From Butyrivibrio sp. (lineage in GTDB: Bacteria > Bacillota > Clostridia > Lachnospirales > Lachnospiraceae), in assembly GCA_015056575.1 (NCBI GenBank), contig SVGA01000018.1, positions 1 through 64,000 on the forward strand: a stretch of DNA of 64,000 nt, written 5' to 3'. Below the pieces are notes generated by a model. It made no database searches. It saw nothing but the letters and a program-made list of their open reading frames with translations, and was not told where the DNA came from. Shown piece after piece: positions 2,727 to 23,136 of the stretch (the first letter of the stretch is position 1; each line of letters starts with the position of its first letter). A program made the translations under genes and the position numbers.

Positions 2727-3968
2727 TTAGAAAACGCCATTAAGCTTTGCTGCAAGCTTATTGATTGATTCTTTGTTTCTCCGATCTGACGAATCAGCAT
2801 AGATTTCATATGTAGTAGAAATCTGTCTGTGTCCCATCACTGCCTGGATCACTTTTGGATTGTCTTCCACCTCACAGAGCCTTGTAGCAAATGTACGTCT
2901 CAGATAGTGACACGTGAAATGCGGAAGTATTATCGGTTCCCTATCTTCCCTAACAGCATCAATCTCTTCCTCATGATTGTAATCATTGTAGATTCTTTTA
3001 ATTGCTTTATTAACTGAGGCAGCGCTCATTACTGAGCCATACTTGTTTTGGAAAATGAATCCCGAATATCCGTCTACTACAGTCTGATTGTACCCCTTGC
3101 CTGCAAGTTGGTTTTCCTTTTCAAATTGGAATGCTTCTTTAACAGCATCCATCATAGGGATTATTCTACAACCTGCTTTGGTCTTAGGTGTTGAGATCCT
3201 TAGCTTTGATGTGCGTGAACCCTTCTGAGGGTAGTACGACAGTGTATGATTAACATCTATCCATCCCTCTTTCAGATCGATGTCCTGCCAACGAAGGCCA
3301 GTGCATTCTCCAATTCGCATTCCCGTTCCAAGAAGTACAGTAAAAAGCGGCCACCAATGATAATACACCGGGCTCATAGCAACATATTCCATAAAGGCTT
3401 TTTGTTGCTCTGGAGTAAGTGCCTGCCTTTCCGTTTCCGTCTTAGGAAGTCTCTTTGCAAGTTCTCTCTTTGCTCCTTCGGTCGGGTTCTTTCTTATTAT
3501 ATCATCTCTTACAGCCAACTCGAATGTCGGATGTAACAATCCATCTACAGATTCAATAGTAGAAAATGAAAGATGCCTTTCCGAATGTAAAAAGGTGTAG
3601 AACTGCAACACATCGGAATACTTTACATCAACAAGTTTCTTTTTTCCGAAGTCATCTCTGACATAACGCTCGTAAGTATATTCGTAGTTGCTCTGTGTCG
3701 AATCCTTCAGGTCTATTCTTGTTGAAATGTATCTGTCATATGTCGAATTGATGGTTGCGAGGCCTGCAGCATAGATATCAAGTCCATCCAGCTGATCCTT
3801 TTTTAATTTGTCCTCTCTCCGTCTAAGTTCTAACAGATTATCTGCATATATGTATTTCTTCCTGCCAATAGGATCGGTGTAGATATACATATAACGCTTG
3901 TCTGATTTTCTCTGATGTTCTCCGCGGAAGAGGGTGTTACCTTTCAAGTCTTTTCTTGAATTTGCCAT
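2727..3968 (-). CDS. int: Tyrosine site-specific recombinase/integrase
   Basis: GTGMRIGECTGLRWQDID, HYLRRTFATRLCE, VMGHRQISTTYEIYAD motifs typical of Tn916-family integrases. Confidence 0.95.
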   Translation of the reverse strand: MANSRKDLKGNTLFRGEHQRKSDKRYMYIYTDPIGRKKYIYADNLLELRRREDKLKKDQLDGLDIYAAGLATINSTYDRYISTRIDLKDSTQSNYEYTYERYVRDDFGKKKLVDVKYSDVLQFYTFLHSERHLSFSTIESVDGLLHPTFELAVRDDIIRKNPTEGAKRELAKRLPKTETERQALTPEQQKAFMEYVAMSPVYYHWWPLFTVLLGTGMRIGECTGLRWQDIDLKEGWIDVNHTLSYYPQKGSRTSKLRISTPKTKAGCRIIPMMDAVKEAFQFEKENQLAGKGYNQTVVDGYSGFIFQNKYGSVMSAASVNKAIKRIYNDYNHEEEIDAVREDREPIILPHFTCHYLRRTFATRLCEVEDNPKVIQAVMGHRQISTTYEIYADSSDRRNKESINKLAAKLNGVF

Positions 3969-3981
3969 TCTTCCTCCATAA

Positions 3982-4194
3982 CTACCGTTTTTTCGCGGTT
4001 CGTAAATACTCCTCTACAAGTTCCGGATCCACAAAAACAAGCGTCTTACTATGTGGATAATAAGCTCCGCAGGCTTCTGCCAACTTTTTCATAGTTGCTC
4101 TGCCGACCTTAAAATACTCCGAAGCTTCTTTGAGTCGCATCAGTCTTGTTGCCTTTGCTTTAGTCTCTTTTACTGTAGCAATGTCATTGCCCAT
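3982..4194 (-). CDS. Excisionase-like small HTH protein
   Basis: LMRLKEASEYFKVGRATMKKLAEACGAYYPHSKTLVFVDPELVEEYLR directly upstream of int. Confidence 0.75.
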   Translation of the reverse strand: MGNDIATVKETKAKATRLMRLKEASEYFKVGRATMKKLAEACGAYYPHSKTLVFVDPELVEEYLRTAKKR

Positions 4195-4340: not shown

Positions 4341-4523
4341 TTACCGATTCTTATGTGACAAAATAAATTCTTCCAATATTGGATAATCAATATACACTGT
4401 AGCCCTGTTTATATAGTGGTATGCACCACACGCTTCAGCCATCTTTCTTATTGTTCTCTTATCCCCTGCAATAAGATGTGATATCTCTTCATATGTATAT
4501 AGACGTTTCGTATTTCCACGCGT
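4341..4523 (-). pseudogene. Second excisionase-like gene, 5'-truncated remnant fused out of frame to virD4
   Basis: Minus-strand frame TRGNTKRLYTYEEISHLIAGDKRTIRKMAEACGAYHYINRATVYIDYPILEEFILSHKNR*, homologous to the ORF at 3982-4194. Confidence 0.7.
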
Positions 4524-5487
4524 CTTCTTTACCGGCAGCTAATTTGTATTTGTTATACTGCCTTACTGCGAAGTGATCAGGATTCTTTTTCTCAAGCCTT
4601 GAAAACAGGATATCCACTGCATTCTGGAATGATTCATCATCCTCCCTAACCTCCATGGAATTGATCATTTCAACAAGTGTATTAAAATTCCTCTCTTCCT
4701 CAGGAGCCTCATAATAGATCATGCCGATAAGTGCTGTATAAAGCAGCTTCTCGGCTTTCTCCCAGAAAGGATCTCCGGGAGTGCCCTCACCCTTGGTATT
4801 TGCCATGAGTGTTGTTACAAGCTTCAATATGTCAGACTCCGAATGGATATATTGGAACGGATTGAAATGCATGCTCTTCTTGAAATTCACAGTATTGAAT
4901 ATTTTTATCCTGTAGCCAGCCTGTACAAAAGCGTTACCAACTTCATTGATGACGGTTCCCTTGGGATCAGTCAATACATAGGAACTGTGGAACTGTAAGA
5001 GATTCGGTTTTATGAAAAACCTTGTCTTACCGGAACCAGAACCACCTACCACAAGGACGTTCTTATTCCTTGCAAGTTTGGGTTCCTTTGGCCGGTTGTT
5101 CATGGTAATGCGTTCTGTCTGTGACAGGATCACATTATTTTCAAACACCGGGTCCTCAAACGGTTCTATATCCTCTTGTTTTCCCCATCTCGCTGATCCA
5201 TACTCCTGTCCGTGGCGAAAGTTTTTGGCATTCTTACTTTTGATATAGACTGCAAGCCTAAGAACTGCTCCAAAAGCAATGCCAATACATAGGTCAAAAG
5301 GATGAATGCTGGGAAGCATGTTTGCAAATGCCTTACTAAGGCCACCATAAAGGACAAGTCCCTGGACCTTTTCAGACATATTGCTTCCCCAGGCTATTCT
5401 CCACGCTTCACCAAGATTGGTACAGAAAAGCCCCACAGCAACATACGGGATATTAAGGATAATTTTCTTCTTTACCTTTCTGTTCAT
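4489..5487 (-). pseudogene. VirD4/TraG-like conjugative coupling protein, C-terminally truncated
   Basis: KNVLVVGGSGSGKTRFFIKPNLLQFHSSYVLTDPKG Walker A region; protein stops after 332 aa, running into xis-like DNA in another frame. Confidence 0.8.
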
Positions 5488-6757: not shown

Positions 6758-7840
6758 TCAGAGTGCTGCTTCACCCTTTGTCTTGGTGCCAATGTCTGCA
6801 GCATCCTTATGAGGTGTCTTAGCCGCCTCATCCTTGGCTGCCTTAAGGTCTCCAAGAAGTGATTTCTTCTCTGATGTTTCGTGGAGCTTTGTTTCCTTTT
6901 CAGCCTGGCGCTCTACAAACTTCCCACCAAGCTCAAAGATCTTATCCTGAGCATCGTAGTGATATACGTTGTCTGTAAGCTGGTCTGCAGGATCCACGGT
7001 TGTGGCATTTACCTCTTTTACCATGTTCTCAAGGCTCTTGAGGTCGAAGTTACCATTATCAGGAATGATCAAAAGCTCGTGAATAGAACTTGGTAAGATG
7101 AAGAAGCTCTGCCCACCAACTCTTTCCGAAGCCTTATCCATGAAGTCCTCATATGCAAGGACTCCGGCTCCGTGAACATTTCCTTCTACGGAAGCGACAA
7201 ACATCTGCTCCTGCTCAGGTGGAATGTTAAGGCCAAGCATCTCCAGGTCCTCAACACCCATCTGCTTTGCAAGCACTTCTGCCATGCCCTCGATAACAAG
7301 AGGTCTGATCTCAGGAGCATTCTTCACAGCATCCTCATGGAGCTGGTCTGCAGTGATTCCATAATTATCGATCATCTGATTTGTCACAAGGATTGTTCCT
7401 GTACCCTGGGCTGTATCTCCGATCACAAAGCGGTAAACCACTGACATGTCCTCAATATCCTTATGAGGAACAGTCTCAAGCAGGTCTGCGTTTCTGTCCT
7501 TGGAAACAACCTCCATTGCAAGTGAATCCTTCATCTTGCTGTAATCACTGAATGCATCCACATCAAACTCAGGTCTGGACTTAAGAGCGTTGTCCGCCAT
7601 ATCAGCAGCTCCCTCTACAATTGAATCGTAAGATCTTCCGTCCTCATATTCCTTGTAAAGAGCAGTTGCGTTAAGATTCACTCCGATGATGCTGTCCTCA
7701 GGCTTTACCGTGATCGCATCGTATGTCTCGTTCATCTTATCTACTGTTCTGGTCTCTACCAGTGTGTCGCCACCAGTTCTTGCATCAAGTGCTTCCTTAA
7801 CGTCCTTTACCAGATTGTCCTTAAATGTTTCAAAATCCAT
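6758..7840 (-). CDS. DUF5688-like protein of ICEs
   Basis: MDFETFKDNLVKDVKEALDARTGGD... likely start at the internal Met (track start 7888). Confidence 0.7.
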   Translation of the reverse strand: MDFETFKDNLVKDVKEALDARTGGDTLVETRTVDKMNETYDAITVKPEDSIIGVNLNATALYKEYEDGRSYDSIVEGAADMADNALKSRPEFDVDAFSDYSKMKDSLAMEVVSKDRNADLLETVPHKDIEDMSVVYRFVIGDTAQGTGTILVTNQMIDNYGITADQLHEDAVKNAPEIRPLVIEGMAEVLAKQMGVEDLEMLGLNIPPEQEQMFVASVEGNVHGAGVLAYEDFMDKASERVGGQSFFILPSSIHELLIIPDNGNFDLKSLENMVKEVNATTVDPADQLTDNVYHYDAQDKIFELGGKFVERQAEKETKLHETSEKKSLLGDLKAAKDEAAKTPHKDAADIGTKTKGEAAL

Positions 7841-8112
7841 GTTGTTTTCCTCTCTCTTTTCAAATAATTTTTGACACGAAAAAAGCACCGGTCATGACGC
7901 ATTCGTCACAACACAGTGCCGGAACAAAAACATATTCTTTTGCAAAAGAAAAACGCCTCATGGTTCGGACTTCATTTCTGTAATCCGTATCACTTGGCGC
8001 ATTATAATAATATCATGCCCAAAATCGATTGAAAAGTGACGAGAGGGGTAAACTTGGGGTAATACCGGGATAAAGTTGAGGGAAAGTTGAGGTAAACTTC
8101 AACTAAATAGTA

Positions 8113-8952
8113 TTATTTGTACCCTACTATTCCACCCTTTTGCTGTCCTACATGTAATGCCAAAACGGAATAACCTCCAAGTATAACTGCAGCCAGCATA
8201 ACGTAAATAAAACCTTCAAAAATGGAACCCTGTCCCATAAAGCAGAGAACTGTCTGATAGATTCGTGGAACTGCAAAATAAACTGCCATCACATTATATA
8301 TATACTTCTGAAGTTTTCCATATGACCTGAAATATGCCGCAAAAATAAAGAATGCCAATGCACAGCCCCAATAAATCAGCAGGCCAGACTGTTCATAATG
8401 CAAACCCATTGTAAAAAACTGAATTGTCTTTTCATATGTAAAGAACAAAATAGCTGCAAATACAAGTATAGTTGCCATTAAGGAAACCTTTACTTTTACC
8501 GGATCCTTTTCCACATATCCGTTTAGTATTGCATCATGCTTTGCTCTATCCATCTCCATAAGGCTTTCATGACCCTTATTTGCAAAAAGCTTCCAAGCCC
8601 TTATTTCATCCTCTATGGTTGGAATTATAGCTTTAATATGAGTTGCACTAACTGCCTCTTCGGTACCCTGGTGTGAGCCTTTATTACTCAGCTTTCGCAT
8701 CGCATGAAGGTTATATATCTGAGCCTTCGGAAAGCTGCTACAATTATCGAGTGCATCAATCTGTTCCATAATTGTAGGAAGCTGATCAGCATTTTTTATC
8801 TCAGGAGTGTAATAATCTGTATATGAATTAACAATAATCTCTACAATCGTTCTTACGAGCATAGCACCATATTCATATTCGCCTTCATTTACAAATTTTT
8901 TTAAATCCACAAAAGTCTTATCTACTTTTGCCACTTTTTCATTTAATGTCAT
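8113..8952 (-). CDS. DUF4145/HEPN-like N-terminal domain plus C-terminal transmembrane segments
   Basis: VRTIVEIIVNSYTDYY...MRKLSNKGSHQG then several hydrophobic helices. Confidence 0.6.
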   Translation of the reverse strand: MTLNEKVAKVDKTFVDLKKFVNEGEYEYGAMLVRTIVEIIVNSYTDYYTPEIKNADQLPTIMEQIDALDNCSSFPKAQIYNLHAMRKLSNKGSHQGTEEAVSATHIKAIIPTIEDEIRAWKLFANKGHESLMEMDRAKHDAILNGYVEKDPVKVKVSLMATILVFAAILFFTYEKTIQFFTMGLHYEQSGLLIYWGCALAFFIFAAYFRSYGKLQKYIYNVMAVYFAVPRIYQTVLCFMGQGSIFEGFIYVMLAAVILGGYSVLALHVGQQKGGIVGYK

Positions 8953-9028: not shown

Positions 9029-9931
9029 TTACGCTCTATATGTTGACCCCAGCTGCTGAAGCTTAGCAATTCTGTCATCTGTAGCAGGATGACTGCTTGA
9101 AAGTACAGCAAATACACCCTTACTACTGCAACCAGCATACTTATCAAGGAATCTGCAAAGTCCCTCGGAATAACCAAGCTTCAATGAAAACTCATCTGCA
9201 ATGTATTCCTCGGATCTTCCAGTTGCAAGGACAAGGTACTGACCAAACTTAGTCCAAATCTTCATTAGAAGCGCAACAATCACGTCTCCACAAACACCAA
9301 TGATGATTGAAAGATTGCCCTGTCTTGAACCAAAAAGATTTGAAAGACTGCCAAAGAATGTAAGTATTCTGAAAATCCATCTAATAACAAGGATCATTGC
9401 AGTAATAATCATATTTCCTACGGTAACTACTAGAATCAAGTCTGTATCGTGATTAGCGATATGAGCAAACTCATGGCCAAGTACTCCCTTGAGCTCTTCA
9501 GCTGTAGCCTTTTCATACATACCCTTTGTAAGGCATATTGTCTTTCTTCCAGTTGCAAATGCATTAGGATCCTTATCATCGTTCATGAATAATTCTATAT
9601 CATCTGGCAAAGATGGGTTTTCCTGCTTTGCACGAGCATAAACCTCTTTAAAAATTGGATTAAGACGCTCAATGTGATCTATTCTCTTTATCTTTCTGCA
9701 TCCCATCTGTACTCTTAAAATCCACTCTCCAATTGGAGATAAAGCTATTACTATTGATAAAGCATATACACCTAAAGCCATCGGTATTGATTTCCAATTA
9801 AACTCACCAGATCCCGATGTTGTAAACCAGTTAAGTACGTATGTGATAATAAAAACATTTATTACCAAATAAATAATTACAGGAATTCTGTGCTTCTTAG
9901 CTAAACTCTTGAAAAAATCGATAAAATACAT
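9029..9931 (-). CDS. M48 family membrane metalloprotease (HtpX-like)
   Basis: GVLGHEFAHIANHDTDL HExxH motif; SEEYIADEFSLKLG; GGAGG RBS before ATG at 9931. Confidence 0.9.
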   Translation of the reverse strand: MYFIDFFKSLAKKHRIPVIIYLVINVFIITYVLNWFTTSGSGEFNWKSIPMALGVYALSIVIALSPIGEWILRVQMGCRKIKRIDHIERLNPIFKEVYARAKQENPSLPDDIELFMNDDKDPNAFATGRKTICLTKGMYEKATAEELKGVLGHEFAHIANHDTDLILVVTVGNMIITAMILVIRWIFRILTFFGSLSNLFGSRQGNLSIIIGVCGDVIVALLMKIWTKFGQYLVLATGRSEEYIADEFSLKLGYSEGLCRFLDKYAGCSSKGVFAVLSSSHPATDDRIAKLQQLGSTYRA

Positions 9932-9994
9932 ATTTTCCTCCAAATCAATAACACAAACAACAAATTACAAATCACCAAAAGAATCAATAGCGCA

Positions 9995-10020
9995 TAAAAA
10001 AAGCGATGCAAACGCATCGC
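9995..10020 (-). terminator. Riboswitch expression-platform terminator
   Basis: Minus strand AGCGATGCGTTTGCATCGCTTTTTTT. Confidence 0.85.
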
Positions 10021-10024
10021 TATA

Positions 10025-10100
10025 ATAAACTGCAACTGGCTGCCTAAAATAGGCCCTATAGCTTTGCGTCACTAGATCACTCTAGCTTTGCCCATTATTT
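10025..10100 (-). ncRNA. Cyclic-di-GMP-I (GEMM) riboswitch
   Basis: Minus strand GGGCAAAGCTAGAGTGATCTAGTGACGCAAAGCTATAGGGCCTATTTTAGGCAGCCAGTTGC matches the conserved GGCAAA...GACGCAAAGC...GGCCT...AGCCAG.TTGC core; terminator follows. Confidence 0.88.
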
Positions 10101-10118
10101 TCCCTTTTCGCAGACGAA

Positions 10119-10147
10119 ATATTACCACAGTTTTTCACAGCATGCAA
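10119..10147 (-). promoter_or_regulatory. Sigma-A-like promoter driving the c-di-GMP riboswitch
   Basis: TTGCAT - 17 bp - TAATAT on the minus strand, just upstream of the aptamer. Confidence 0.6.
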
Positions 10148-10399
10148 TAAATATTTTTGACATTGTAAAAATATTTATTGATTGCAGTTGCAATATCCAT
10201 CTTAGTTTTTGTGGACAAAGCCTTTGCTAAAGACATGATTTACTTTACCTCAGCTACCAATTTTTTTAAATGAACTGCTAGTTCAGTGTTTGAAATCATC
10301 CACGCAAAAAGCGCCATGTAAGATGTGTTCTTAACTTTCACATTACTTAGCGCTTCAAGCCTTTTTATGATAAAAAAGAATTATATTAAACAGTAAAGC

Positions 10400-10819
10400 T
10401 TATCCCTTCTCCGGAATTTTAATTGTCAAAAACTCACATACTGCCTCAAATACATCATAAAAATCCTTTTCTTCCTTAGTGTCCTCTTTTTTCTTCAATT
10501 TATTGTATGAATCCTTATATCCTGGATGATATAGTGTCACTTGATTTGAATCAGTCTGTATTTCCACATTAACATTACCCTTATCAAAAGTATTTACCAC
10601 AATATTATTTCCAGATCTATACCAAGTGAACGAATCCCACGTTTCTTCCTTATTCTTACTATACGTTCCCATTCCGTATTTACTGAACGTGTAAACAACA
10701 ACTCCATTGCCACATTTCCATGTCCCCATCATGTCGCGCGGATGAGATATTCTGTCAACATTTACCAGCAAGAATAATGCTAATATGACACCTATGAAAA
10801 ATCCTGCTATTCTCTTCAT
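10400..10819 (-). CDS. Small membrane-anchored protein with lipocalin-like repeats (DUF5640-like style)
   Basis: N-terminal TM MKRIAGFFIGVILALFLLVNV; GTWKCGNGVVVYTFSKYGMGTYS. Confidence 0.6.
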   Translation of the reverse strand: MKRIAGFFIGVILALFLLVNVDRISHPRDMMGTWKCGNGVVVYTFSKYGMGTYSKNKEETWDSFTWYRSGNNIVVNTFDKGNVNVEIQTDSNQVTLYHPGYKDSYNKLKKKEDTKEEKDFYDVFEAVCEFLTIKIPEKG

Positions 10820-10867
10820 AAAATCACCTCTCAAATTATTCTTCTTACGTTTTCATTCTTGCGTCTT

Positions 10868-12580
10868 TTATGTTGCACTTACAAAAAATGAATATATGCT
10901 AACTACAGTCGCCATGACTGCCACTACAGGATGGCCAAAAAGCAAAAGAATTGCTATGGGCAGCGACAGAAGTGGTACAGCAAAATACTCCGCTGGAGAC
11001 ACATTTCCTTTTACCAATTTTTTTAGATAAGGCATAACCGCTATAATTACATAAATTACTAGGTATATAAAGTGTGATCGTCTTAATAAGAAGAAAAATG
11101 GTACCGCAGTTACCATGCTCAAAAATGTCGAAAGGAATAAACTCTCACCAATACTACCATCATCTACTTCTACTACTCCCCTCATTCCTGCCGCCATAAA
11201 GAATGCTGCCCCCAAGCCAACTATGCATCCAATAAAAGGATGATCATAATAGAAAAGAGCATAAATGCCAGCTGCTACACCCAAGGCAATCACGGTCACA
11301 AATATCGCTCCCCACCTATCAGCTTTATTAACGCTTACCTCAGGTTTGATATTCGCACCATCCATGTACTTCAGCACATTCTGTCCAAAAGACAACTTTT
11401 TGATTGCCTTCCTTGCCTTACTTTTATTCTTCAGAATTATTCCGACAGCATAAGCCAACCCTGCATTATATGGCTGTTTTTCAATAAAGTAATCGGATTT
11501 CGAATTATAATCTGAAGGATATCTCAATGCCTGATCATATACTTCCAAAAGCTTATTCTTTCTCTTTTTATCTCCTTGCAAATATGCATCTGCATTCTCC
11601 CTAAAGGAAGCATAAAGCTCATGCACCTTTCTAAATGTATCTATATATGAAATATCATAGCCATTTTCAGAAAAACCGATTGCTTTCTGAGCATAATAGT
11701 CAGTGATTTCCAAATAATATATATCAGGACTATTCTCATTTTCTGCCGTCACATAGGATAAATCATAATACCCTTTGGGCATAGCTTTATCAATTTTAAT
11801 TGCCATGTAGAAGGCTTTTACTACTTCTCGATAATAATCAATGTCTTGTAAGTATGTTGAAAACAGCCAATCTCGCAAAGAAGCTACTATATATCCAAAG
11901 TCATAAGCGATTCCCCTACGATCATACAGTTCATTCAAGTAGTAAAATATGTTCTGAGCTAAAATATTTGCAACAGATCCATCTGTGCCATTGGCCATAG
12001 CATCAAAACATTTAAATATAGAATCATAAAGAATATCCCCGTCTAACTTGCTCCTGTTTGTATTTGCAATTCTCGCGATTCTTAAAAACTCATTATAAAA
12101 GCTTTGATGATTCTGGTTTTTTGCAGGTCCAAGACCAATCATTTTACACATGGTATCATTGATCTCTTGGAATGCATCATTATAAGAAATGACCTTATAC
12201 CTTCCATACTCTGTCTTAAAGAAGTTCCCGTTGTCATAATCAATCCCGTTATAAAGCTTTCTTGAAGGTTTTGCATTGGGATTAATAATATCCCCTTCAT
12301 TCTTGACCTCATTTCTATCTGTTTTTTCTTGCGCCTTTACCTTATTTTCATTATTGTGGCTTAACTTTTGATCATATTCTTTTCTTGAAGATTCAGACTC
12401 AAATACTGCTTCCGCTTCAGCAATTTTCTCTAAAAGCTTTTCTGCCTCATATCTTTTATCTGTCGTTGGGGCAGTATTCTGTCTATTTATCTGTTTCTTC
12501 TTTTCTTTAAGCAGTTGCGCTTTGATTCCATCAATATCAAGATTTCTGTTTAAGGAAAAAAGCTCGTAATAATTGTCCAT
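10868..12580 (-). CDS. Membrane-anchored J-like (HPD-less) protein
   Basis: N-term MDNYYELFSLNRNLDIDGIKAQLLKEKKKQINRQN...EAEKLLEKIAEAEAVFESESSRKEYDQKL resembles a J domain without HPD; C-terminal TM helices. Confidence 0.7.
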   Translation of the reverse strand: MDNYYELFSLNRNLDIDGIKAQLLKEKKKQINRQNTAPTTDKRYEAEKLLEKIAEAEAVFESESSRKEYDQKLSHNNENKVKAQEKTDRNEVKNEGDIINPNAKPSRKLYNGIDYDNGNFFKTEYGRYKVISYNDAFQEINDTMCKMIGLGPAKNQNHQSFYNEFLRIARIANTNRSKLDGDILYDSIFKCFDAMANGTDGSVANILAQNIFYYLNELYDRRGIAYDFGYIVASLRDWLFSTYLQDIDYYREVVKAFYMAIKIDKAMPKGYYDLSYVTAENENSPDIYYLEITDYYAQKAIGFSENGYDISYIDTFRKVHELYASFRENADAYLQGDKKRKNKLLEVYDQALRYPSDYNSKSDYFIEKQPYNAGLAYAVGIILKNKSKARKAIKKLSFGQNVLKYMDGANIKPEVSVNKADRWGAIFVTVIALGVAAGIYALFYYDHPFIGCIVGLGAAFFMAAGMRGVVEVDDGSIGESLFLSTFLSMVTAVPFFFLLRRSHFIYLVIYVIIAVMPYLKKLVKGNVSPAEYFAVPLLSLPIAILLLFGHPVVAVMATVVSIYSFFVSAT

Positions 12581-12604: not shown

Positions 12605-14968
12605 TTAAATATCATCAGAAATGTCTTTTGGTATTATTGTCCTTCTGCTCTCCCCAACAAGTCCTTCTACTTCGACCCTATTTATCATATTGATCCATAT
12701 TTTCTCGAATAAACTTCGCATTGCTCTTGCATTACCGAATTTCGAATCGCGCCCCTTATAAATGTTTTCTATCTGACTATTTATCTTATCTTTTGCCGAC
12801 TCTTGTACATTCACATTTCTTTCGCTTGCAAAGCCATAAAAAATTTGAATCAATTCATCTAGAGAATAATCCGGGAACACTATTGTCTTTGCTAATCTAC
12901 TCTTTATTCCGGAATTACTGTTCATAAAGAGTTCCATTTCTTTTGAATAGCCCGCAAAAATGACAATCATTCGATCCCTATTATCTTCCATCTCTTTAAT
13001 CAGAGTTGCTACTGCCTCCATACCAAAAGAATCATTTTCTCCATGAACTAAATTATACGCTTCGTCAACAAACAAAATTCCTCCATAAGATCGTTCACAT
13101 AATTCTTTTGTTTTGATTGCTGTCTCGCCCTGATATCTTCCTACAAAATCACCTCTGGATGCTTCTATTAGCACTCCTGTTTTGGCTATTCCTATTGCAG
13201 ATAATACCTCTGCATACAATCGCGCCACTGTTGTCTTACCTGTTCCTGGGTTGCCTGCAAAACACATGTGCATATTGTTGTTTATAAAAATACTATCAAT
13301 ATTACCTTCCCCTCTCTCATGTTTCAAGTAATCCATCATTCTTACATTAGATTTGATTTCATACTTAACATCTTTAAGTCCAACAAGCTTATCAAGTTCA
13401 CCCAGTATCTCTTTTGCCTTATTCTCGGCACTTTCGCTCAAATCTATGCCAAAATCTTCTGGGGTTAATATTGTCATGTATTCGACACTGGCTTGTTTAG
13501 GATTAAAACGTATTGCCTTTTCCATATATGCTTCGTTCATCAAAGTCCGAACCGCTCTGGCATTACCAAATTTACTATTAACACGTAAACGATTGATTCT
13601 TTCTTTAAATGCAAGTTCTCCATCCGAGCTAAATGAATAACGCTGTTCTGTTGCCATATTCCTTGCAATCTGTAATAGTTCGTCCTCACTATAATCTGGA
13701 AATTCTATAACCTTTGTAATTCTGCTTTCTAAACCCACATTTGCCTGTAGCAATTTATACATTTCATTTTTATAGCCAGCAAGAATTACAACCAGTTCCT
13801 TTCGATGATCCTCCATTTCCTTTACTAGGGTATCGATAGCTTCTTTTCCAAAATCATCGTTATCACCATTTATTAAGCTGTACGCCTCATCTATAAACAG
13901 AACACCGCCAAGAGCCTTTTTTATTGCATCTTTTGTTTTTATTGCAGTATGTCCTTGGAACTCTCCTACTAAATCACCTCTTTCAACCTCTATGAGTTGC
14001 CCCTTTTCAAGTAATCCTGCATTATGAAGAATTCCGGCAAGTAGTCTTGCGACAGTAGTTTTACCTGTTCCTGGATTTCCCACGAAAGCAAAATGATAAG
14101 AATCCTGAGTATCCAATAAAACTCCTAAAGTTTCTTGACGGGCTTTGTCAAACTCTATTTTTTTCTTAATTCTTAGAATTTCATTTTTTACAGCATCCAA
14201 GCCGATAAGATTTCCAAGTAATTCTTCTGCAGCCTCTGGAGACGTCTCATCATAAAAATGTGACTCATTATCAAAAGTTTCTATTTCCTCTTGCGAATCC
14301 CTCTTATCCCTTATTTTACAAAGTAGCTCTAAAGCTGTTTGCGCAACATCTGAGTTGGGATATATTCTCAATATCCTCTTACTCATTTTTTCGCACTCAT
14401 CATACCTACAAGCCTTATAAAGATATATTATTTCTGTCTTGAAAATAGCAAGACTTTTACTAATATCCTTGCCCTTTTCTATCAGTTTTTCAATTTCTTC
14501 ATCGTCAATATTGTTTTTAATCAGGACTGAGATATACTCACCAATGACTTCCTCATCCAATGGATACTCAGAATATGCTTCGCGCATCTCACGTACTGCT
14601 TTTCTTATATTGTTATCCGATAGATAATAGCCGGTACGGGCAAAATAGCACTCTTTAAACTTCCTATCTCTTATCTTTTCAAATAGTTCCTCTAGAGGTT
14701 CATCAACTTTAACTTCGGAAGAAACTAGTATTATTCCAGAGATAGCATAAGGATTAGTTGCATCATAATAGTATGCCTGCTTGTAATACCGATATGCCTC
14801 TTCATACCTTTGTTGGTGGTATAGAATTTTACCCATCATATCTAAAAGCGAAGGGTTTGTCCCATCCGATTTCAGCTTGCTTTGAATTATTTCGTATGCA
14901 GCTTCGCTTTCACCACTTAGAAGAAGCCTATTTATTTGGTTGGCAATGCTTTTCAGTTCCTTGTTCAT
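12605..14968 (-). CDS. TPR + tandem CbxX/CfxQ (SpoVK-like) AAA+ ATPase
   Basis: Two Walker A copies GNPGTGKTTVARLLAGIL and GNPGTGKTTVARLYAEVL, two FIDEAY/FVDEAY Walker B, N-terminal TPR-like helices. Confidence 0.92.
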   Translation of the reverse strand: MNKELKSIANQINRLLLSGESEAAYEIIQSKLKSDGTNPSLLDMMGKILYHQQRYEEAYRYYKQAYYYDATNPYAISGIILVSSEVKVDEPLEELFEKIRDRKFKECYFARTGYYLSDNNIRKAVREMREAYSEYPLDEEVIGEYISVLIKNNIDDEEIEKLIEKGKDISKSLAIFKTEIIYLYKACRYDECEKMSKRILRIYPNSDVAQTALELLCKIRDKRDSQEEIETFDNESHFYDETSPEAAEELLGNLIGLDAVKNEILRIKKKIEFDKARQETLGVLLDTQDSYHFAFVGNPGTGKTTVARLLAGILHNAGLLEKGQLIEVERGDLVGEFQGHTAIKTKDAIKKALGGVLFIDEAYSLINGDNDDFGKEAIDTLVKEMEDHRKELVVILAGYKNEMYKLLQANVGLESRITKVIEFPDYSEDELLQIARNMATEQRYSFSSDGELAFKERINRLRVNSKFGNARAVRTLMNEAYMEKAIRFNPKQASVEYMTILTPEDFGIDLSESAENKAKEILGELDKLVGLKDVKYEIKSNVRMMDYLKHERGEGNIDSIFINNNMHMCFAGNPGTGKTTVARLYAEVLSAIGIAKTGVLIEASRGDFVGRYQGETAIKTKELCERSYGGILFVDEAYNLVHGENDSFGMEAVATLIKEMEDNRDRMIVIFAGYSKEMELFMNSNSGIKSRLAKTIVFPDYSLDELIQIFYGFASERNVNVQESAKDKINSQIENIYKGRDSKFGNARAMRSLFEKIWINMINRVEVEGLVGESRRTIIPKDISDDI

Positions 14969-14981: not shown

Positions 14982-16496
14982 TCACTCTATATCTGCGCCA
15001 CCAATAAATTCCTTTTTATTTGCGATTTCATCATCGGACAAGTTGCTTTCGCGATCGATGTGCATCTCACCCAAGTCTGCACCATCTACATTATCCTTAA
15101 CTCTTACATGGATAATTCCGTTCTGATCATATTGCATCATTACCCCAATTGGAGATCCCTTAGGTCTTGGAACCAATTTTAAAGTTGTTGTACCAATAAC
15201 AGTATCGTACTCAGGATCTTCATCTTCACCTTCAACCACCACAACTTTCAAACTAGTTTGCCCTTCATCTAATGTGTAGTATTCCTTTTCTCCTGAGGCA
15301 GGTATAGCCGTATTCCTTGGGATAATAAAAGATGCTATGTCATACTCCCCATTATGAGTTGTTATTATTCCAAGAGAGTGTGAATTTACATCAGTAACCT
15401 TTATTTCCTTTTCAGCTTTTGGTTTTTCACCAGTCGTTACCACATTCAAAGTATCAGCATAATATGCTGCACCCATAGCAACTGCTTCATCAGGGTTTAA
15501 CTCATGCGATGGCTCAATTCCAGTAAGATCCTTAATCATATTTTGAATAGCTGGAATTCTTGTAGACCCACCCACAAGTAATATTTTAGATATATCCGAC
15601 CACTTAAGCCCAGCATCATCCATAGCAATTTCCATACTTGCTTTTGTGGAATCAATCTGGCTCTTAATCATAGCCTCGAATTCTTCTCTGGTAATTTCAA
15701 CCTTAATAGGTTTTCCTTGCGATACTATCGATAAACTTGCCTTTGGCCTACTAGAAAGCGCTTTTTTCAAATTTTCTGCTTTGATTCTCAAATCCTGGCA
15801 AGCAACATCATCATCCTCAAGATCCAAATTATGCTCTTTCTTAAACTCATCGATAACCTTGTTGATTATGGCATTATCAAAATCAAAACCTCCAAGATTT
15901 CTGTTACCAGTAGTTGACAGAATATCTACCTTAGTAAGATTATCTGACAATCTCATTATGGTAATATCAAAGGTACCTCCGCCAACGTCATAAACCATAA
16001 CAATACCATCTGAATTAGCCTGACCATGACAATAAGCAAGAGCTGCAGCAGTAGGCTCATTTATAATTCCAAGAACTTTTAGTCCAGCTATCTCGCCTGC
16101 ATCCTGAGTTGCTTTTCTTTGTGCATCATCAAAATACGCAGGGACAGTAATTACTGCGCCATCGATTGTTTCTCCGGTTGCATTTTCTGCATCTTCCTTG
16201 AGTCTCTTTAATATCATTGCAGAAATATCTTCTGCTGAATACTTCTGATCTGATGAAATATCAAAAGAAAAGGCTTTCTTACCCATCTGTCGTTTTACAA
16301 ACTGGCATACACTGTATGGATCAACAACACTGTTATCCTTAGCCTGCTCTCCAACTATAATTGAGCCATCTTCAAACATAACCACAGAAGGAGTTGTTCT
16401 CTCTCCCTCTCTATTTGTCAATATTTCTGCGCGTCCATCTGCGCCTAAACGAGCAATTGCTGAAAAAGTCGTTCCCAAATCAATGCCTACTAACAT
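14982..16496 (-). CDS. Hsp70/DnaK-like chaperone, short C-terminus
   Basis: VGIDLGTTFSAIARLG, AVITVPAYFDDAQRKATQDAGEIAGLKVLGIINEPTAAALAYC; 504 aa. Confidence 0.95.
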   Translation of the reverse strand: MLVGIDLGTTFSAIARLGADGRAEILTNREGERTTPSVVMFEDGSIIVGEQAKDNSVVDPYSVCQFVKRQMGKKAFSFDISSDQKYSAEDISAMILKRLKEDAENATGETIDGAVITVPAYFDDAQRKATQDAGEIAGLKVLGIINEPTAAALAYCHGQANSDGIVMVYDVGGGTFDITIMRLSDNLTKVDILSTTGNRNLGGFDFDNAIINKVIDEFKKEHNLDLEDDDVACQDLRIKAENLKKALSSRPKASLSIVSQGKPIKVEITREEFEAMIKSQIDSTKASMEIAMDDAGLKWSDISKILLVGGSTRIPAIQNMIKDLTGIEPSHELNPDEAVAMGAAYYADTLNVVTTGEKPKAEKEIKVTDVNSHSLGIITTHNGEYDIASFIIPRNTAIPASGEKEYYTLDEGQTSLKVVVVEGEDEDPEYDTVIGTTTLKLVPRPKGSPIGVMMQYDQNGIIHVRVKDNVDGADLGEMHIDRESNLSDDEIANKKEFIGGADIE

Positions 16497-17798
16497 TTAA
16501 TCCTCCTTACTCTCTACCATATATTGATTTAAAGTCTCAATAAATAAATTAAAGTCTATGGCCTTACCATCTTGTTCCTTATCAAATAGCTCATTTCTTA
16601 AATATGAGACAAGCTGTTTTTTATCCTCATGACGCAGCAACTTTTTGTACTCTTTTGATGCTTTTCTTATATCGGGATTCTGCGATTCAAATCTTATAAA
16701 CAATCCATTCAGCCAGCTATCTGTAAATAGATACCCACCCACATCATCATAGTTTTCCAGAAACCTAAGCACAAAAGCATTCCACTTCGTAAATGAATCG
16801 GCATTCACATATACTGAAATCTGCTCTGGAACCCCATCCATTATTCTCCCCATTGATATATCCATGGTTGAATAATCAAATGGCTGAATGTGTCCTAAAA
16901 GCTTCTTCAGCTTTTCTTCATCTATTTCAGTTATTTTTTTGCATACTAGCCGGTACAGTTCATTTATCGTCCGTAATGCTCTTTCTGAATAACATGCTAT
17001 ATCTCTGCTAAATCCATATTCTCCATACGCCTTTTCTGAAGGCATTTTCATAGGTAGCCATCTAAACCTGTCCTTGAAACTATTCTGACTGGAATCATAC
17101 TGATATGAAATAATGAATGGACTATCTATTCCCTGCATTTTTACCAAATATGCCTTAATATACTGCAGACCTACACATTCCACATTTTTGATTTCATCAA
17201 CATTAGCATTTAATATATCCCCTTTATACTGCTTGTATTTAGTGAAATCCGCATTCAAGAGCTGAGTGTTTATCTCATCGATAGAAACGCCCTCTATATG
17301 AGGCATATGCGGTATTACAATAAAGGTTTTATCTTTGCCTTGCAAATCAGCTTCAGAAGGCTGCTCACCAATCTTTAACAAATCACCTGTTATAGCATCA
17401 GCCTGAAATCTCTGTCTTACATTGGCATGTTCTATCTTCTGTTTCATTCCTAATGATTCTCTGCCCAATTCTGTAATGCCATTAGAATCCACAAAAGAAT
17501 ATCCCATTAATAAATCAAGAATTTTCTGCGTATAATTAGGACTTAATCCCATCATATCAGCAATCTCTTTAGCACTTCCAAGCCCTGCATCGACAAATCT
17601 CAGGACAGTGAGTGGAACAAGATCAAAGTCTTCAAAAGTCGTTTCAGATACTTCCATCTCTAAAATTGCAATTGGATAATAAACCTCAGTAAAAAGCTCT
17701 ATCCTGCTGGGAATAATCTGAGGATTCTGCGCCATTATGCGATCCAAAACCGTATTAACTTCATAATTATGTTTTTTTTGCTGTTGTTTTTCAGCCAT
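16497..17798 (-). CDS. Uncharacterised protein with N-terminal wHTH-like region
   Basis: LGSAKEIADMMGLSPNYTQKILDLLMGYSFVDSNG; in operon. Confidence 0.6.
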   Translation of the reverse strand: MAEKQQQKKHNYEVNTVLDRIMAQNPQIIPSRIELFTEVYYPIAILEMEVSETTFEDFDLVPLTVLRFVDAGLGSAKEIADMMGLSPNYTQKILDLLMGYSFVDSNGITELGRESLGMKQKIEHANVRQRFQADAITGDLLKIGEQPSEADLQGKDKTFIVIPHMPHIEGVSIDEINTQLLNADFTKYKQYKGDILNANVDEIKNVECVGLQYIKAYLVKMQGIDSPFIISYQYDSSQNSFKDRFRWLPMKMPSEKAYGEYGFSRDIACYSERALRTINELYRLVCKKITEIDEEKLKKLLGHIQPFDYSTMDISMGRIMDGVPEQISVYVNADSFTKWNAFVLRFLENYDDVGGYLFTDSWLNGLFIRFESQNPDIRKASKEYKKLLRHEDKKQLVSYLRNELFDKEQDGKAIDFNLFIETLNQYMVESKED

Positions 17799-20700
17799 CC
17801 AACGCTATCCTCTTGGCAAACTCAGCATAAGACATCAGTTCGCCTCTTCCTCCATTTACATCGTCTAACATTTTTTTAATGAAATCCGAAAACTCCTTTT
17901 CACTATGTTCATATATGGGTTCTTCCATATCATCAAGCTCCTGGTATAGACATCCCGCCAAAAAGCGCATATCTCCAATCATAACAAGGGTCTTTTTGCA
18001 TCTACTCATAGCAACGTTTAGTCTTCTCAGCTCATTAAGAAATCCTATTCTACTCATCGTTGGCTTCTTTTTTGAGCTCTTTGTAAAGCTATAAATAATC
18101 AAATCTCGTTCCTGTCCCTGGAAGCTGTCAAGTGTTGCCACCATAGAATTTGCTATTTCTGGAGGAACTACACCCTTTAATGCCTTTTTTATTCTGGCAA
18201 CCTGATCTCCGTAAGCTGAAATTACACCAATCTCGCTCATTTTTATATCAAGTTTTTCACCAATAACGTGCCTAACTATTTGTTTACATATTTCAGATTC
18301 AAGAACATTAAATGTTCCTCTTTCCGGCGTCCTTTGCTCGTAACGATCCTTAACGTCAGAAGTGTCAACTACAATAAATGGTTTATCAGAAAGCCCTGGC
18401 ATAAGTCCCTTCATGCTGCGCTTAAAATCTGGAGATTTGTACTCACCGTTGTAAAACCACTCAGAAATAGTATCCGCTATTTCTCCTGGCATTCTGTATT
18501 GCGTATCGAGCATCATCTTATTGGAATCCGGAAGCTCATTGAACATCTTTTCAAAAAGGCTCTTCTTAAGTAATTCCGGATCAACCCCATTTATTTCACA
18601 AGCTTCAATCAATTCTTGATCAGCTGAAGGAGGAATCTGCTTAAAATCCCCAAGCATAATAAGCTTATTAGATACTGACATTGGCACCAGTGCATTATGA
18701 ATCTGTATCTGTCCAGCCTCATCGATAATAGTTACGTCAAATTGAAGATTTGCAAATCGCTTCTGCGAACTGACACCTATGCACGTAGCACCTACAAGGT
18801 CCACTGTTTCAAGTATTATTTCATTTAGAGCATAATTCTGCTTTCCAACAATATCCTCTCTCCATTGTTTTTCATTATCCAAAAGCTTTTGGGCTCTTAT
18901 AATCTCTCCGTCAATTCTATCAAGGAGAGATCTGAGTCTTACGGGAGAATCCAGATCATCCTTGAAAATGACTATTGATTCGAATAGATGTGCAATCCTC
19001 GGAACTTTAGGAAGATCCAAGTTGAGATTTTCATAGCCTTGTATTTTTTTCTTCTGTGCCCTTGCTATATCATGCTCATACTTCTGTTTAAGCATTTGTT
19101 CAGTCTCTGCATACATGGCACTGTATTTGATATAATCCGCTTCATTCTTTGCAATCTCGTCTTTTAAAAGTACCAATTCCTGCTCTATCTTTTGTGCCAA
19201 AGCAACATCTTCTTTATACTGAGCTTCTTCAAGCTTTCTAAGTATGATATTTTTCGAATTATGCTTTTCTATATTGTCTCTCAGCTCTGTGAGTTTATTA
19301 TTCTTCAAGTCAAATTCATTCTTTTGTCTCTTTGTCTCCTCAAAGAATCTATCTTGTCTTATCTTAATTGGCTTAAGCTGATTATCTACGCTCTCTTTAT
19401 ATTGGTCGTTTATTTCATCTACTTCAGAAAGCTGCTTTGAAAAAATCATGAATCGCTTTCTATATTCACTCCAATTACTAATCGCAGATTCAAGTTTTAA
19501 AAGATTATTCTGTGTAGCAATATCTATGCTGTCATTCAGCCTTACCAATTTCTTTTCAAACATGTAATCTTTAACATCGTCCTGAAGTTTTGACTCGGAT
19601 CCTATTCTGATTACATCAATATCTTTTTCCTCAGCTAGTCTTGCAAGTACATTGTCTACCGCTTTATTGTTTTGAGAAGAAACCAGTACCCTCTTGCGTT
19701 CCACATTAACAAAGTACTTAACCCACTCAAGGATAACCGTAGTTTTTCCAGTTCCAGGCGGTCCCATTACCAGGAAAACATCCTTAGATTTTATACCTTT
19801 TTCTATAGCTGTTATCTGGCTCTTATTTGGAGGATAAGGCTTCTGATTTTCTAAGTTGTAAATTAATTCGCTTAAATCCTTATCTTCAAATCCTGCAGTT
19901 TTATTACCACCAAGAACATTTTTCATAAACTTTGCTTTGGACACGCCACTTGCTATTTTCTGATTAGCTGCAAGCTGCACATCTTTATTCACCGTTGAAA
20001 AAGACAGTGATATAAAACCAAAAGAAGCAAATGAATCTACGCTAACTTGCTTGTTAAAAAGCACAACTATTTTTTTGTTCTCGTTATCACTAAGATCTAT
20101 TTCAACTATTTCTCCATTGATTCTCTCACTATGTTTTCCTTCAAATTCAACCTGAGTACCAATATCGAATACTGATTTATCAATGTCATCCACTATAAAT
20201 GCATATGCTACCCTATCTATGCGGTCATAATCAGAAGCATAAAATTCTCTATAGGATATCTGTCCCATCTCATGAGTTTTCTTTTCTTCAAGCTCACTTG
20301 AAAGAATTGAGTACTGTTCAGACTGCTTAAGGACTTCTTTCAGAAATAGTTCATCATAATCAGTCTCACCTGATTCCAGCTCTATTTCTTCGTCATTTTT
20401 ATCCTCATTCTGATACTCTGCCTGCTTGATTATCTTTATTATCTGATCCGCTGAAGGCTTTGTATCTCCGCAGTCCACGGAATTGTATTCATGCTTCTGT
20501 CCAGAGATATACTTGTATTTAATGTCACTCTCCGGAAGCAAAACCTCTGCATCCACCCCATTCTCAGCACTAAGAATTATGCCTTTCTTCAATGCCTTAT
20601 TCTGCGAAAACAAATTGCTCTCGTTATAAAAAATTACAGAAAAGCCATCAAATGTTTTGTCATTTAATGCACAGCCAAAACATCCAAATGAGGTCACAAG

Positions 20701-20886
20701 TTCGAATTTATCATTCTCATGCTCAATCGGTGTAATAATAAGTCTTGTAAGTTTAGAGAGCATAGCAACGCAGTTTTCAGGAGACTCATTACTTTTGCTG
20801 ATTCCCTGATATGCACTGTTTGTTATTCCAAACTTGATTATGCAGTTTATCTTTATAGCATCCTTATCGAATTTAATTATCTGCAT
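17791..20886 (-). CDS. SF1 DNA/RNA helicase (UPF1/Dna2-like, AAA_11/AAA_12) with coiled-coil insertion
   Basis: GPPGTGKTTVILEWV, DVTIIDEAGQIQIHNAL, MLGDFKQIPPS, TLDSFQGQERDLIIYS, RRLNVAMSRCKKTLVMIGD. Confidence 0.95.
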   Translation of the reverse strand: MQIIKFDKDAIKINCIIKFGITNSAYQGISKSNESPENCVAMLSKLTRLIITPIEHENDKFELVTSFGCFGCALNDKTFDGFSVIFYNESNLFSQNKALKKGIILSAENGVDAEVLLPESDIKYKYISGQKHEYNSVDCGDTKPSADQIIKIIKQAEYQNEDKNDEEIELESGETDYDELFLKEVLKQSEQYSILSSELEEKKTHEMGQISYREFYASDYDRIDRVAYAFIVDDIDKSVFDIGTQVEFEGKHSERINGEIVEIDLSDNENKKIVVLFNKQVSVDSFASFGFISLSFSTVNKDVQLAANQKIASGVSKAKFMKNVLGGNKTAGFEDKDLSELIYNLENQKPYPPNKSQITAIEKGIKSKDVFLVMGPPGTGKTTVILEWVKYFVNVERKRVLVSSQNNKAVDNVLARLAEEKDIDVIRIGSESKLQDDVKDYMFEKKLVRLNDSIDIATQNNLLKLESAISNWSEYRKRFMIFSKQLSEVDEINDQYKESVDNQLKPIKIRQDRFFEETKRQKNEFDLKNNKLTELRDNIEKHNSKNIILRKLEEAQYKEDVALAQKIEQELVLLKDEIAKNEADYIKYSAMYAETEQMLKQKYEHDIARAQKKKIQGYENLNLDLPKVPRIAHLFESIVIFKDDLDSPVRLRSLLDRIDGEIIRAQKLLDNEKQWREDIVGKQNYALNEIILETVDLVGATCIGVSSQKRFANLQFDVTIIDEAGQIQIHNALVPMSVSNKLIMLGDFKQIPPSADQELIEACEINGVDPELLKKSLFEKMFNELPDSNKMMLDTQYRMPGEIADTISEWFYNGEYKSPDFKRSMKGLMPGLSDKPFIVVDTSDVKDRYEQRTPERGTFNVLESEICKQIVRHVIGEKLDIKMSEIGVISAYGDQVARIKKALKGVVPPEIANSMVATLDSFQGQERDLIIYSFTKSSKKKPTMSRIGFLNELRRLNVAMSRCKKTLVMIGDMRFLAGCLYQELDDMEEPIYEHSEKEFSDFIKKMLDDVNGGRGELMSYAEFAKRIALDG

Positions 20887-21731
20887 TTTGTTTCCCTAAT
20901 AATTTTTTTCAGATCATTTATCAGCTCTGAGTAGTTCCTGTATCTATCCTTAGGTGAATATGCCATAAGCTTATTAATTGTTTTATTCATATTTGCACTT
21001 GTGTCCGGTTTTTCTGCTATAACCTCTTTAAAAAAATCCCATTTACCTGCAGCCGGATCATAGCAGTCGTAGTCCATCATTCTCGCCGGAATTCTTCCGG
21101 TGACAAACTGATACATCATCACTCCTATAGAAAACATGTCTACCTTATCTCTAGCGGTAGTAATTGACCCATAATCCATTTCCGGCGCTTTATAATACAG
21201 TGTTCCTTCCATCTGATTAGGAACAGAAACGCTGATATTGAAATCAATAAGATAAAGATCATTATTCTGATTGAACATAATATTCTCAGGCTTAATATCC
21301 TTATGCTGGAAATTCTTTTTCGCCATGACATCTAATATCTGGCAAAGTTCATGCATCCACCCAAGAAACATGGAGAGAGAAACGCTTCGTTTCATCTTAT
21401 CTGCCAGTGTTTCGCCATTTATCCACTGCATCACAATGAAAAGAGCGTTCTCTTTCTCCTCATAGTAAGTCCCATATATATTTGGAATTTTTGCAGTAAG
21501 CTCCCCAATCTGAACCATAGTTTTAACTTCCTGTTGAGCTCTCTTGAGGTTTTCCTTTCTTTCTCTTGGGGTATTACCCTGAATAATTACCTTCTTAAGA
21601 GCCACAGTTCTATTAAGAGTAAGGTCCAATGCTTTATATAACTCACTATTCGGAGTCACATGTGAAGCTTCATCATATCTATAGCAATGATTCTCAGTAA
21701 ACTTAAGGTCCATATCATTCCATTTCTTCAA
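20877..21731 (-). CDS. Ser/Thr protein kinase
   Basis: TVALKKV, HKDIKPENIMFNQNNDLYLIDFNIS, APEMDYGS...DMFSIGVMMYQFVTGR. Confidence 0.92.
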   Translation of the reverse strand: MKKWNDMDLKFTENHCYRYDEASHVTPNSELYKALDLTLNRTVALKKVIIQGNTPRERKENLKRAQQEVKTMVQIGELTAKIPNIYGTYYEEKENALFIVMQWINGETLADKMKRSVSLSMFLGWMHELCQILDVMAKKNFQHKDIKPENIMFNQNNDLYLIDFNISVSVPNQMEGTLYYKAPEMDYGSITTARDKVDMFSIGVMMYQFVTGRIPARMMDYDCYDPAAGKWDFFKEVIAEKPDTSANMNKTINKLMAYSPKDRYRNYSELINDLKKIIRETKCR

Positions 21732-23136
21732 AATACTGAATTATAGTTTGTGTAGTGGGTCTAAGATCAGCGTTTGGATTCTTCATTTTATCTATCAGCT
21801 GCACTAAAGACATATTCACACCAGCTCTCTGTAATTTCATAGCCGGTACTACGCCTGGTTCAATTTGACCATTAAAAATATCTCCAAACAACACTCCTAA
21901 TGAGAATATGTCAGCCTTTTCCCAATTAACCTTAGCATCTCCTCCCTGGAATAACGTTCGTACTTCCGGTGCAGAGTATTTGAGTAATTTCTGTTGCTGA
22001 ATCATTGTCTGCATATTTTGAACATTGGCAATAACAGTACCAAATTCTTCAGATGCAATCTTTGCACAGTCCAACTTAATTATCGTAGGTTCCAAGATTT
22101 CGTTTTTTCCCTTGCATACATAGATACTGTCAAAGGAAAGGTTTCTATGATATATCGGTGTACTAAGATTATGAAAACTGTTTAGAATAGCTGTAATCTT
22201 CTTACATAATTCTGTTTTAGCATTTACATCCATGCTCTTTAACAGTGCATCGTTCAAGTGAGATGGTTTCTTTGAAAACTTATAAATAACCACATAGTAA
22301 TCACTTGTGTCAGAACTAAGTTTAGATAAGACATCTACTTGAACATTACCATCAAACTGTATCCCTGCTTCGGATTCCGCCTCAGAAAAAGCCTCCTGAT
22401 CCCTCAGCAAGAGTAGTTTCTCGTCAATGTCGCCTTTCTTGAACATCCTAACTATGCCATATTTATTTATGCGCCCAGTTTCATTGTAAGAACATGTTTC
22501 AAATTCTCTAACGCAATTTGACACCGGTTTATCAAGCGGAGTATAAGAATTTATAACGTAGTTATCACCAATAGGAATAATATTTGTATCAAACTGTGGT
22601 ATTTTCTTAGCAGCTTCTTTTCCTTTTTTTCTTACATATTCATATCTGAAAGCTTTATAAATGACGTGGAGAACCGTCTCCAGATTCCCGCATGTTACAG
22701 CAGGCTCATCTGGCTTCTGTTCACTGTGTACACATTGATTACAAAATCTGCGCCAAAGAGCATCCCAAAATGTCTGCTCCTTTTTATTCGCAACAGAAAT
22801 ATATGAGACCATCCTTTGGTTCTTATCAAATTTGGGCAGTTTATCATTTTTCTGAAGTGTGTATAAGTAGTCACTTAAGACAGGATTTCCGCCATTCTTA
22901 GATGTGACCTTAATTCCAAATTCATCAGCCAATGCTTTTGCCCATATTTCAAAAGCATCACGAACAAGCTGACCAGCGCTACTGCAATCTATATATGTCT
23001 TTTTCTCAGCTTCGCAAAGTTTTTTATAGACATCTGGGTATATTTCTTCCACAAAACCAAAATTGCCTTTTTTTACATCCATGTTTTCATTAGCCATACC
23101 GTTCCCTCCGAGTTTATTTACCTTGTCTTTTGACAT
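21715..23136 (-). CDS. DUF4145/HEPN-like N-terminal domain + pseudokinase domain
   Basis: RDAFEIWAKALADEFGI...FCNQCVHSEQ; kinase-like part with YHRNLSFDSIYV (HRD to HRN) and LDCAK in place of DFG. Confidence 0.7.
   Translation of the reverse strand: MSKDKVNKLGGNGMANENMDVKKGNFGFVEEIYPDVYKKLCEAEKKTYIDCSSAGQLVRDAFEIWAKALADEFGIKVTSKNGGNPVLSDYLYTLQKNDKLPKFDKNQRMVSYISVANKKEQTFWDALWRRFCNQCVHSEQKPDEPAVTCGNLETVLHVIYKAFRYEYVRKKGKEAAKKIPQFDTNIIPIGDNYVINSYTPLDKPVSNCVREFETCSYNETGRINKYGIVRMFKKGDIDEKLLLLRDQEAFSEAESEAGIQFDGNVQVDVLSKLSSDTSDYYVVIYKFSKKPSHLNDALLKSMDVNAKTELCKKITAILNSFHNLSTPIYHRNLSFDSIYVCKGKNEILEPTIIKLDCAKIASEEFGTVIANVQNMQTMIQQQKLLKYSAPEVRTLFQGGDAKVNWEKADIFSLGVLFGDIFNGQIEPGVVPAMKLQRAGVNMSLVQLIDKMKNPNADLRPTTQTIIQYFEEME

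Follow-up and report, generated by a model that had tools for sequence, protein, structure and literature searches.

Organisation of the locus

The window, which is the whole 64-kb stretch of DNA analysed here, belongs to contig C38 of the 3.58-Mb genome of a rumen Butyrivibrio. A c-di-GMP-I riboswitch aptamer and an intrinsic terminator precede a gene for an HtpX-like M48 metalloprotease, which is followed by a gene for a DUF4145-like protein. The features of this unit are, in the direction of transcription:

10145-10180 (-): A+T-rich inverted repeat of 14 bp, arms 10180-10167 and 10158-10145 (fold of 10185-10140)
10119-10147 (-): candidate promoter TTGCAT-17-TAATAT, with TGG just before the -10 hexamer (from the sequence)
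10028-10102 (-): c-di-GMP-I riboswitch aptamer, RF01051 (cmscan 57.1 bits, E 1.6e-8; genus model R1 84.5 bits)
10056-10070 (-): predicted antiterminator strand 1, the aptamer core GACGCAAAGCUAUAG, pairing with 10025-10011
10011-10025 (-): predicted antiterminator strand 2 and terminator 5' arm, UUAUAGCGAUGCGUU (duplex of -15.8 kcal/mol)
9996-10021 (-): intrinsic terminator AGCGATGC-GTTT-GCATCGCT, then T6 (fold and terminator scan)
9029-9931 (-): M48 metalloprotease, HtpX-like membrane protein with an HEFAH motif (PF01435, E 8.6e-25)
8113-8952 (-): 279-aa protein with a DUF4145-like N-terminal domain and predicted membrane helices (PF13643, E 3.2e-4)
7880-7920 (-): terminator-like hairpin(s) at the end of the M48/DUF4145 unit (terminator scan)

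The aptamer and its probable ligand

The preliminary description had read the leader as a c-di-GMP-I riboswitch with canonical cores, an assignment to be judged by an Infernal search with the Rfam model, with a low score counting against it. The match obtained is full length (model positions 1-87 at 10102-10028 on the reverse strand), scores 57.1 bits against a gathering score of 35 bits for RF01051, and carries both the GACGCAAAGC and the GGGCAAAG cores, as well as a P2 helix capped by a GNRA loop, GUGA. The Rfam scan returned no second RNA match in the 64-kb window, and the source genome holds one further c-di-GMP-I copy. A SAM riboswitch lies just past the window, at 64918-65033 (-) of the contig (L041 4918-5033).

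The aptamer reads GGGCAAA, with a G at the position that discriminates between c-di-GMP and cGAMP, which we take to be the equivalent of G20 through Vc2 numbering. This G is expected for a c-di-GMP rather than a cGAMP aptamer, and we infer that the window aptamer binds c-di-GMP. A G20A change has been tied to the cGAMP specificity of such aptamers (PMC6274999). In 11 of 97 Butyrivibrio copies (G008:C17:5724, G025:C10:79586 and L198 8651-8727, for example), an A replaces the G at the discriminating position, and these copies could possibly represent cGAMP-type aptamers or an altered specificity in Lachnospiraceae.

With regard to the source of the ligand, the genome contains 47 GGDEF, 18 EAL and 12 HD_5 (HD-GYP) matches, none of which is located on contig C38. 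Since such genes are missing from the contig and numerous in the genome, any ligand would be the c-di-GMP of the host, in keeping with the earlier remark that the element holds no recognisable cyclase or phosphodiesterase gene.

Leader architecture and predicted direction of switching

The hexamers of the promoter that had been proposed, TTGCAT-17-TAATAT, are indeed present, but they match the consensus at 8 of 12 positions and the site is absent from the promoter-scan output; a weak promoter is plausible here. No terminator-like site was found from the upstream cassette to the riboswitch, which, together with the weakness of the promoter, suggests that the leader could also be fed by read-through. 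The 14-bp inverted repeat overlaps the -35 hexamer and is possibly an operator, which would give the leader a second input.

The terminator expected 3' of the aptamer is found at 10021-10002, as a stem of 8 bp followed by T6, and it starts 3' of both the aptamer and P1 without sharing their strands. The aptamer core at 10056-10070 is complementary to the terminator arm at 10025-10011 in 13 of 15 positions, and the duplex of -15.8 kcal/mol is stronger than in dinucleotide-shuffled sequences (z -2.9). When growing transcripts are folded, with energy models that include neither the ligand nor tertiary contacts, the minimum-energy structure of transcripts ending at 10012-10006 is the antiterminator, with pair probabilities mostly above 0.94, and once the end reaches 10002 or beyond, where the terminator is complete, the minimum consists of aptamer, P1 and terminator. 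Aptamer and terminator therefore coexist in the minimum-energy fold, and the alternative antiterminator excludes both.

This computed arrangement, an aptamer-compatible terminator together with an antiterminator that excludes both, is that of a Cd1-like OFF switch. In the flgB operon of Clostridioides difficile, the class I OFF riboswitch Cd1 (Cdi1_3) has an antiterminator that competes with aptamer and terminator (PMC9262584). The window leader resembles it in its class I aptamer, its intrinsic terminator, its competing antiterminator and its predicted OFF response to ligand, and differs in what is controlled, chromosomal flagella in C. difficile and, in the window, the membrane protease pair of an ICE-like element. 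Because antiterminator, aptamer and terminator follow Cd1-type logic, the window unit is predicted to be OFF at high c-di-GMP, which is the likely direction according to the modelled folds. At low c-di-GMP, the aptamer core GACGCAAAGCUAUAG would pair with UUAUAGCGAUGCGUU to form the antiterminator, which would block the terminator and allow the protease pair to be transcribed. At high c-di-GMP, the ligand would keep the core inside the aptamer and the arm AGCGAUGC would be freed for the terminator, so that transcription would end ahead of the protease gene.

The window leader was set against about 96 other Butyrivibrio c-di-GMP-I leaders, and two of their platform types are relevant here. Type A, found in the window and in at least 13 other leaders, has a separate terminator of the form (AT)AGCGATGC...GCATCGCT-T, located 3' of the aptamer. 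The complementarity between core and terminator arm is common to about 15 Butyrivibrio relatives, most of those on the same platform having inherited one terminator by descent and thus not being independent tests. Notwithstanding, two leaders with other terminator sequences retain the core complementarity (G011:C76, z -5.4; G389:C416, z -3.0), which argues that it does not reflect mere descent. In type B, the terminator is built from the 3' strand of the aptamer, GACUGC, with compensating changes that preserve the pairing, and the mutual exclusion of aptamer and terminator points to an ON design. The type B platforms of the same genus could therefore be taken to favour an ON switch in the window too, in which binding of c-di-GMP would prevent termination and induce the protease pair. 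However, the window terminator shares no strand with the aptamer or P1, the two coexist at minimum energy and it is the antiterminator that excludes both, which makes an ON response quite unlikely here. We consider it rather probable that an OFF-type, transcription-attenuating c-di-GMP-I riboswitch gates the M48/DUF4145-like cargo pair on this ICE-like element in response to c-di-GMP made by the host.

The M48 protease and the DUF4145-like protein

The protease gene had been described as HtpX-like, which the match to PF01435 upholds, with a correction of its likely start from TTG 9943, where the reading frame opens, to ATG 9931, which stands behind GGAGG about 65 nt 3' of the terminator. The protein carries HEFAH as its HEXXH motif, and the best score among the HtpX equivalog models is 77.1 bits, against a cut-off of 355, so that it is termed HtpX-like and not filed as HtpX. 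The second gene, announced as encoding a DUF4145 membrane protein, is present at 8952-8113, outside the 9029-10147 segment that had been described, but its PF13643 score of 21.2 bits falls under the Pfam cut-off of 23.1, and the protein is thus called DUF4145-like only. A structure model computed from this single sequence reached a pLDDT of 40 and was unusable.

Relatives of the M48 protein are sparse in the family (17 of 299 genomes), the best one being a tandem copy with 50% identity in genome G156. The scan of the genome contigs with the M48 protein retrieved no relative, and plasmids and phages contained none above 60% identity; distant M48 proteins are found on many Klebsiella plasmids. 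None of the 8 closest M48 loci examined, all of them in other genera, carries a riboswitch. This speaks against a riboswitch conserved with such M48 proteases, and riboswitch control does not appear to be a conserved property of this protein.

The same homologues without a riboswitch, the weak promoter and the occurrence of the M48/DUF4145-like pair just once in the genus would also suit a relic, that is, a mobile leader that landed before the protease gene and is now dead or acts as a merely constitutive attenuator. Against such a history, the aptamer reaches 57 bits with the Rfam model, and no other copy searched fits the genus model better (84.5 bits); its core, the antiterminator and the terminator have all been preserved, and the ribosome-binding site and start codon are normally spaced. 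We therefore regard a relic as unlikely.

An ICE-derived element with a variable-cargo slot

The M48/DUF4145-like pair adjoins the backbone of an ICE-like element, whose features in the window are:

7900-8099 (-): conserved boundary of the variable-cargo slot, 200 bp (91-95% identity in four other Butyrivibrio elements, those of CB08, XPD2006, INlla16 and WCD3002)
6758-7888 (-): DUF5688 protein of the element backbone (PF18941, E 4.3e-91)
4489-5487 (-): VirD4/TraG coupling protein, truncated to 332 of 587 aa (comparison with sister elements)
2727-3968 (-): Tn916-type tyrosine integrase (PF00589, E 3e-26; PF02920, E 8.8e-14)

An integrase is present, and the complete conjugation module that an ICE would combine with it is not, the coupling protein being truncated. 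The truncated VirD4 gene (4489-5487) adjoins the Tn916-type integrase and a small gene (2727-4194). As the coupling protein next to the integrase retains 332 of 587 aa, the element is ICE-derived and probably transfer-defective, its conjugation module having apparently been lost.

The sister elements of sp. CB08, XPD2006, INlla16 and WCD3002 share the backbone from the DUF5688 gene to VirD4 mostly at 96-100% identity (one protein has 80% in CB08), with 96-99% for the DUF5688 protein itself, and the place taken in the window by the M48 pair and the genes around it is filled in them by other genes. Because these elements keep the backbone and the boundary and swap the cargo, the pair is located in a variable-cargo slot. 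The 200 bp at 7900-8099, between DUF5688 and the swapped cargo, mark a cargo-exchange site. The sequence thus upholds the preliminary placement of a riboswitch with an attenuator before a protease pair on an integrated element, and the element is ICE-like.

Among 48 DUF5688 loci (776 kb, named genomes), a c-di-GMP-I riboswitch was found at a single one, in sp. M55, where a type B riboswitch lies in the cargo slot (L161/L274) before genes for a small membrane protein and a DUF6688 protein. This count indicates that the riboswitch travels with particular cargo and not with the backbone, and it speaks strongly against the riboswitch as a feature of the ICE backbone. A riboswitch that belongs to the backbone and governs transfer or maintenance of the ICE, with the protease being incidental, could draw on the position of the M55 riboswitch next to DUF5688; since M55 is the sole case, has the other platform type and carries different genes downstream, this reading is highly improbable.

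The upstream cassette and related loci

A long same-strand operon, running from a kinase gene to a small-protein gene, is located directly upstream of the riboswitch:

21715-23136 (-): PglW-like kinase domain protein, first gene of a Mokosh-like operon (PglW, E 1.3e-9)
20877-21731 (-): Ser/Thr protein kinase (PF00069, E 3e-30)
17791-20886 (-): MkoA-like SF1 helicase (PADLOC MkoA, E 4.1e-102)
16497-17798 (-): MkoB-like protein (PADLOC MkoB, E 5.8e-13, N-terminal third of the profile only)
14982-16496 (-): short DnaK-like Hsp70, 504 aa (PF00012, E 8.5e-133)
12605-14968 (-): double AAA ATPase of the SpoVK/CbbX/EccA type (TIGR02881, E 4.7e-154)
10868-12580 (-): J-domain-like membrane protein, 570 aa (weak DnaJ-type match to curved DNA-binding protein, residues 3-97, E 4.7e-4)
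10400-10834 (-): small secreted or membrane protein, last gene of the cassette

The MkoA profile is split over separate helicase (E 4.1e-102) and kinase genes and the MkoB match is partial, and the operon is therefore termed Mokosh-like. It resembles the Mokosh anti-phage system in having a kinase, an MkoA-like SF1 helicase and an MkoB-like gene, and differs from it in the separation of kinase and helicase, in the partial MkoB and in the added Hsp70, AAA and J-domain genes. Two of the eight M48 loci examined for riboswitches hold their distant M48 protease in an operon with such neighbours: L080 has TIR and HerA-type genes, and L081 has a kinase gene together with one of the HerA type. These settings, together with the neighbours of the window protease, hint at a role in defence or stress. 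Judged by family resemblance, the protease pair probably serves in membrane-protein quality control, or as an effector step at low c-di-GMP, alongside the Mokosh-like/Hsp70/AAA/J-domain cassette.

The best relative of the window helicase among 79 Butyrivibrio genomes, with 36% identity, is found in sp. M55 (G033:C11). There, a homologous Mokosh-like operon (L159, 7179-13797), which encodes a kinase-like protein, a kinase, a helicase (MkoA, E 3e-100) and an MkoB-like protein in this order, has a type A riboswitch 57 nt ahead of its first gene. Relatives of the short Hsp70 with J-domain membrane partners are found elsewhere in the genus. In 3 of 16 such Hsp70/J-domain loci, which were picked by an Hsp70 search blind to RNA, a type B riboswitch is located directly upstream (G026:C28, G372:C7 and G386:C137), against roughly 0.13 expected from the density of the genus (92 riboswitches in 41 genomes, about 0.64 per Mb); the three are mutually similar and may thus represent one event. 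Type B riboswitches, predicted to be ON switches, lie before J-domain membrane protein/Hsp70 cassettes at the following positions:

L160 8969-9051 (-)
L171 3695-3787 (+)
L175 5382-5466 (+)

Furthermore, a pair of type A riboswitches in divergent orientation, separated by about 200 bp, occurs at L188 9626-9976 (G396:C35), and one of the two heads genes for a Sel1-repeat protein, an Hsp70-like protein (826 aa) and an AAA protein; this locus was chosen because of the coincidence and is left out of the enrichment estimate. In another species, part of the Hsp70/AAA/J-domain cassette that lies upstream in the window recurs with 94-99% identity at L158 (G389:C250), on a contig that stops about 0.4 kb short of the riboswitch position and hence cannot test its conservation; no M48 gene was found in the G389 assembly.

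Tentatively, Butyrivibrio c-di-GMP riboswitches might be a recurrent means of controlling mobile defence-like or chaperone cassettes (Mokosh-like, Hsp70/J-domain, M48), so that the motile or sessile state of the host would gate the cargo, with individual units OFF or ON at high c-di-GMP. A repeated linkage of riboswitches to Mokosh-like and Hsp70/J-domain cassettes would be new, and the two riboswitch types and several loci argue for it.

Relation to known systems

Class I riboswitches are already known both in prophages and on a metalloprotease gene, and the window adds a new genus and a new cargo. In C. difficile, Cdi-1-12 turns off the zinc metalloprotease ZmpI (CD2830) (PMC6200980). The window shares with it a class I c-di-GMP riboswitch, a metalloprotease and, by prediction, the OFF direction; the difference is that ZmpI is secreted and cleaves surface adhesins, and the window protein is an HtpX-like M48 membrane protease. 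Likewise, the c-di-GMP-I riboswitches Cdi1_4 and Cdi1_5 of C. difficile prophages are found near lysis modules (PMC3649979), and thus also reside in mobile elements, with phage genes in place of ICE cargo. The preliminary description had called riboswitch control of a mobile protease beside a possible defence operon unusual. These precedents weaken that claim as far as mobile elements and metalloproteases are concerned, and the M55 locus, where a riboswitch of the same subtype heads a homologous Mokosh-like operon, lends weight to the link with such operons.

The mobile tLST stress island contains horizontally moved proteostasis genes, including orf15, which encodes an HtpX-like M48 protease (PMC8290217). 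A mobile HtpX-like M48 protease is thus common to the island and the window, and the gene set and host of the island are unrelated to those of the window. We know of no riboswitch in the tLST island. In the open-access literature, nothing was found that joins c-di-GMP riboswitches to ICEs, and Butyrivibrio appears only incidentally.

The predicted arrangement would wire mobile cargo to a second messenger of the host through RNA alone, with no regulator protein being carried. Should the linkage to Mokosh-like and Hsp70/J-domain cassettes have a function, defence or proteostasis would be coupled to lifestyle signalling by c-di-GMP. By inspection, most of the other Butyrivibrio riboswitches precede genes for apparent surface proteins, chemoreceptors and secreted proteins, and a scan of IMG/VR for type A-like aptamers returned 39 stretches.
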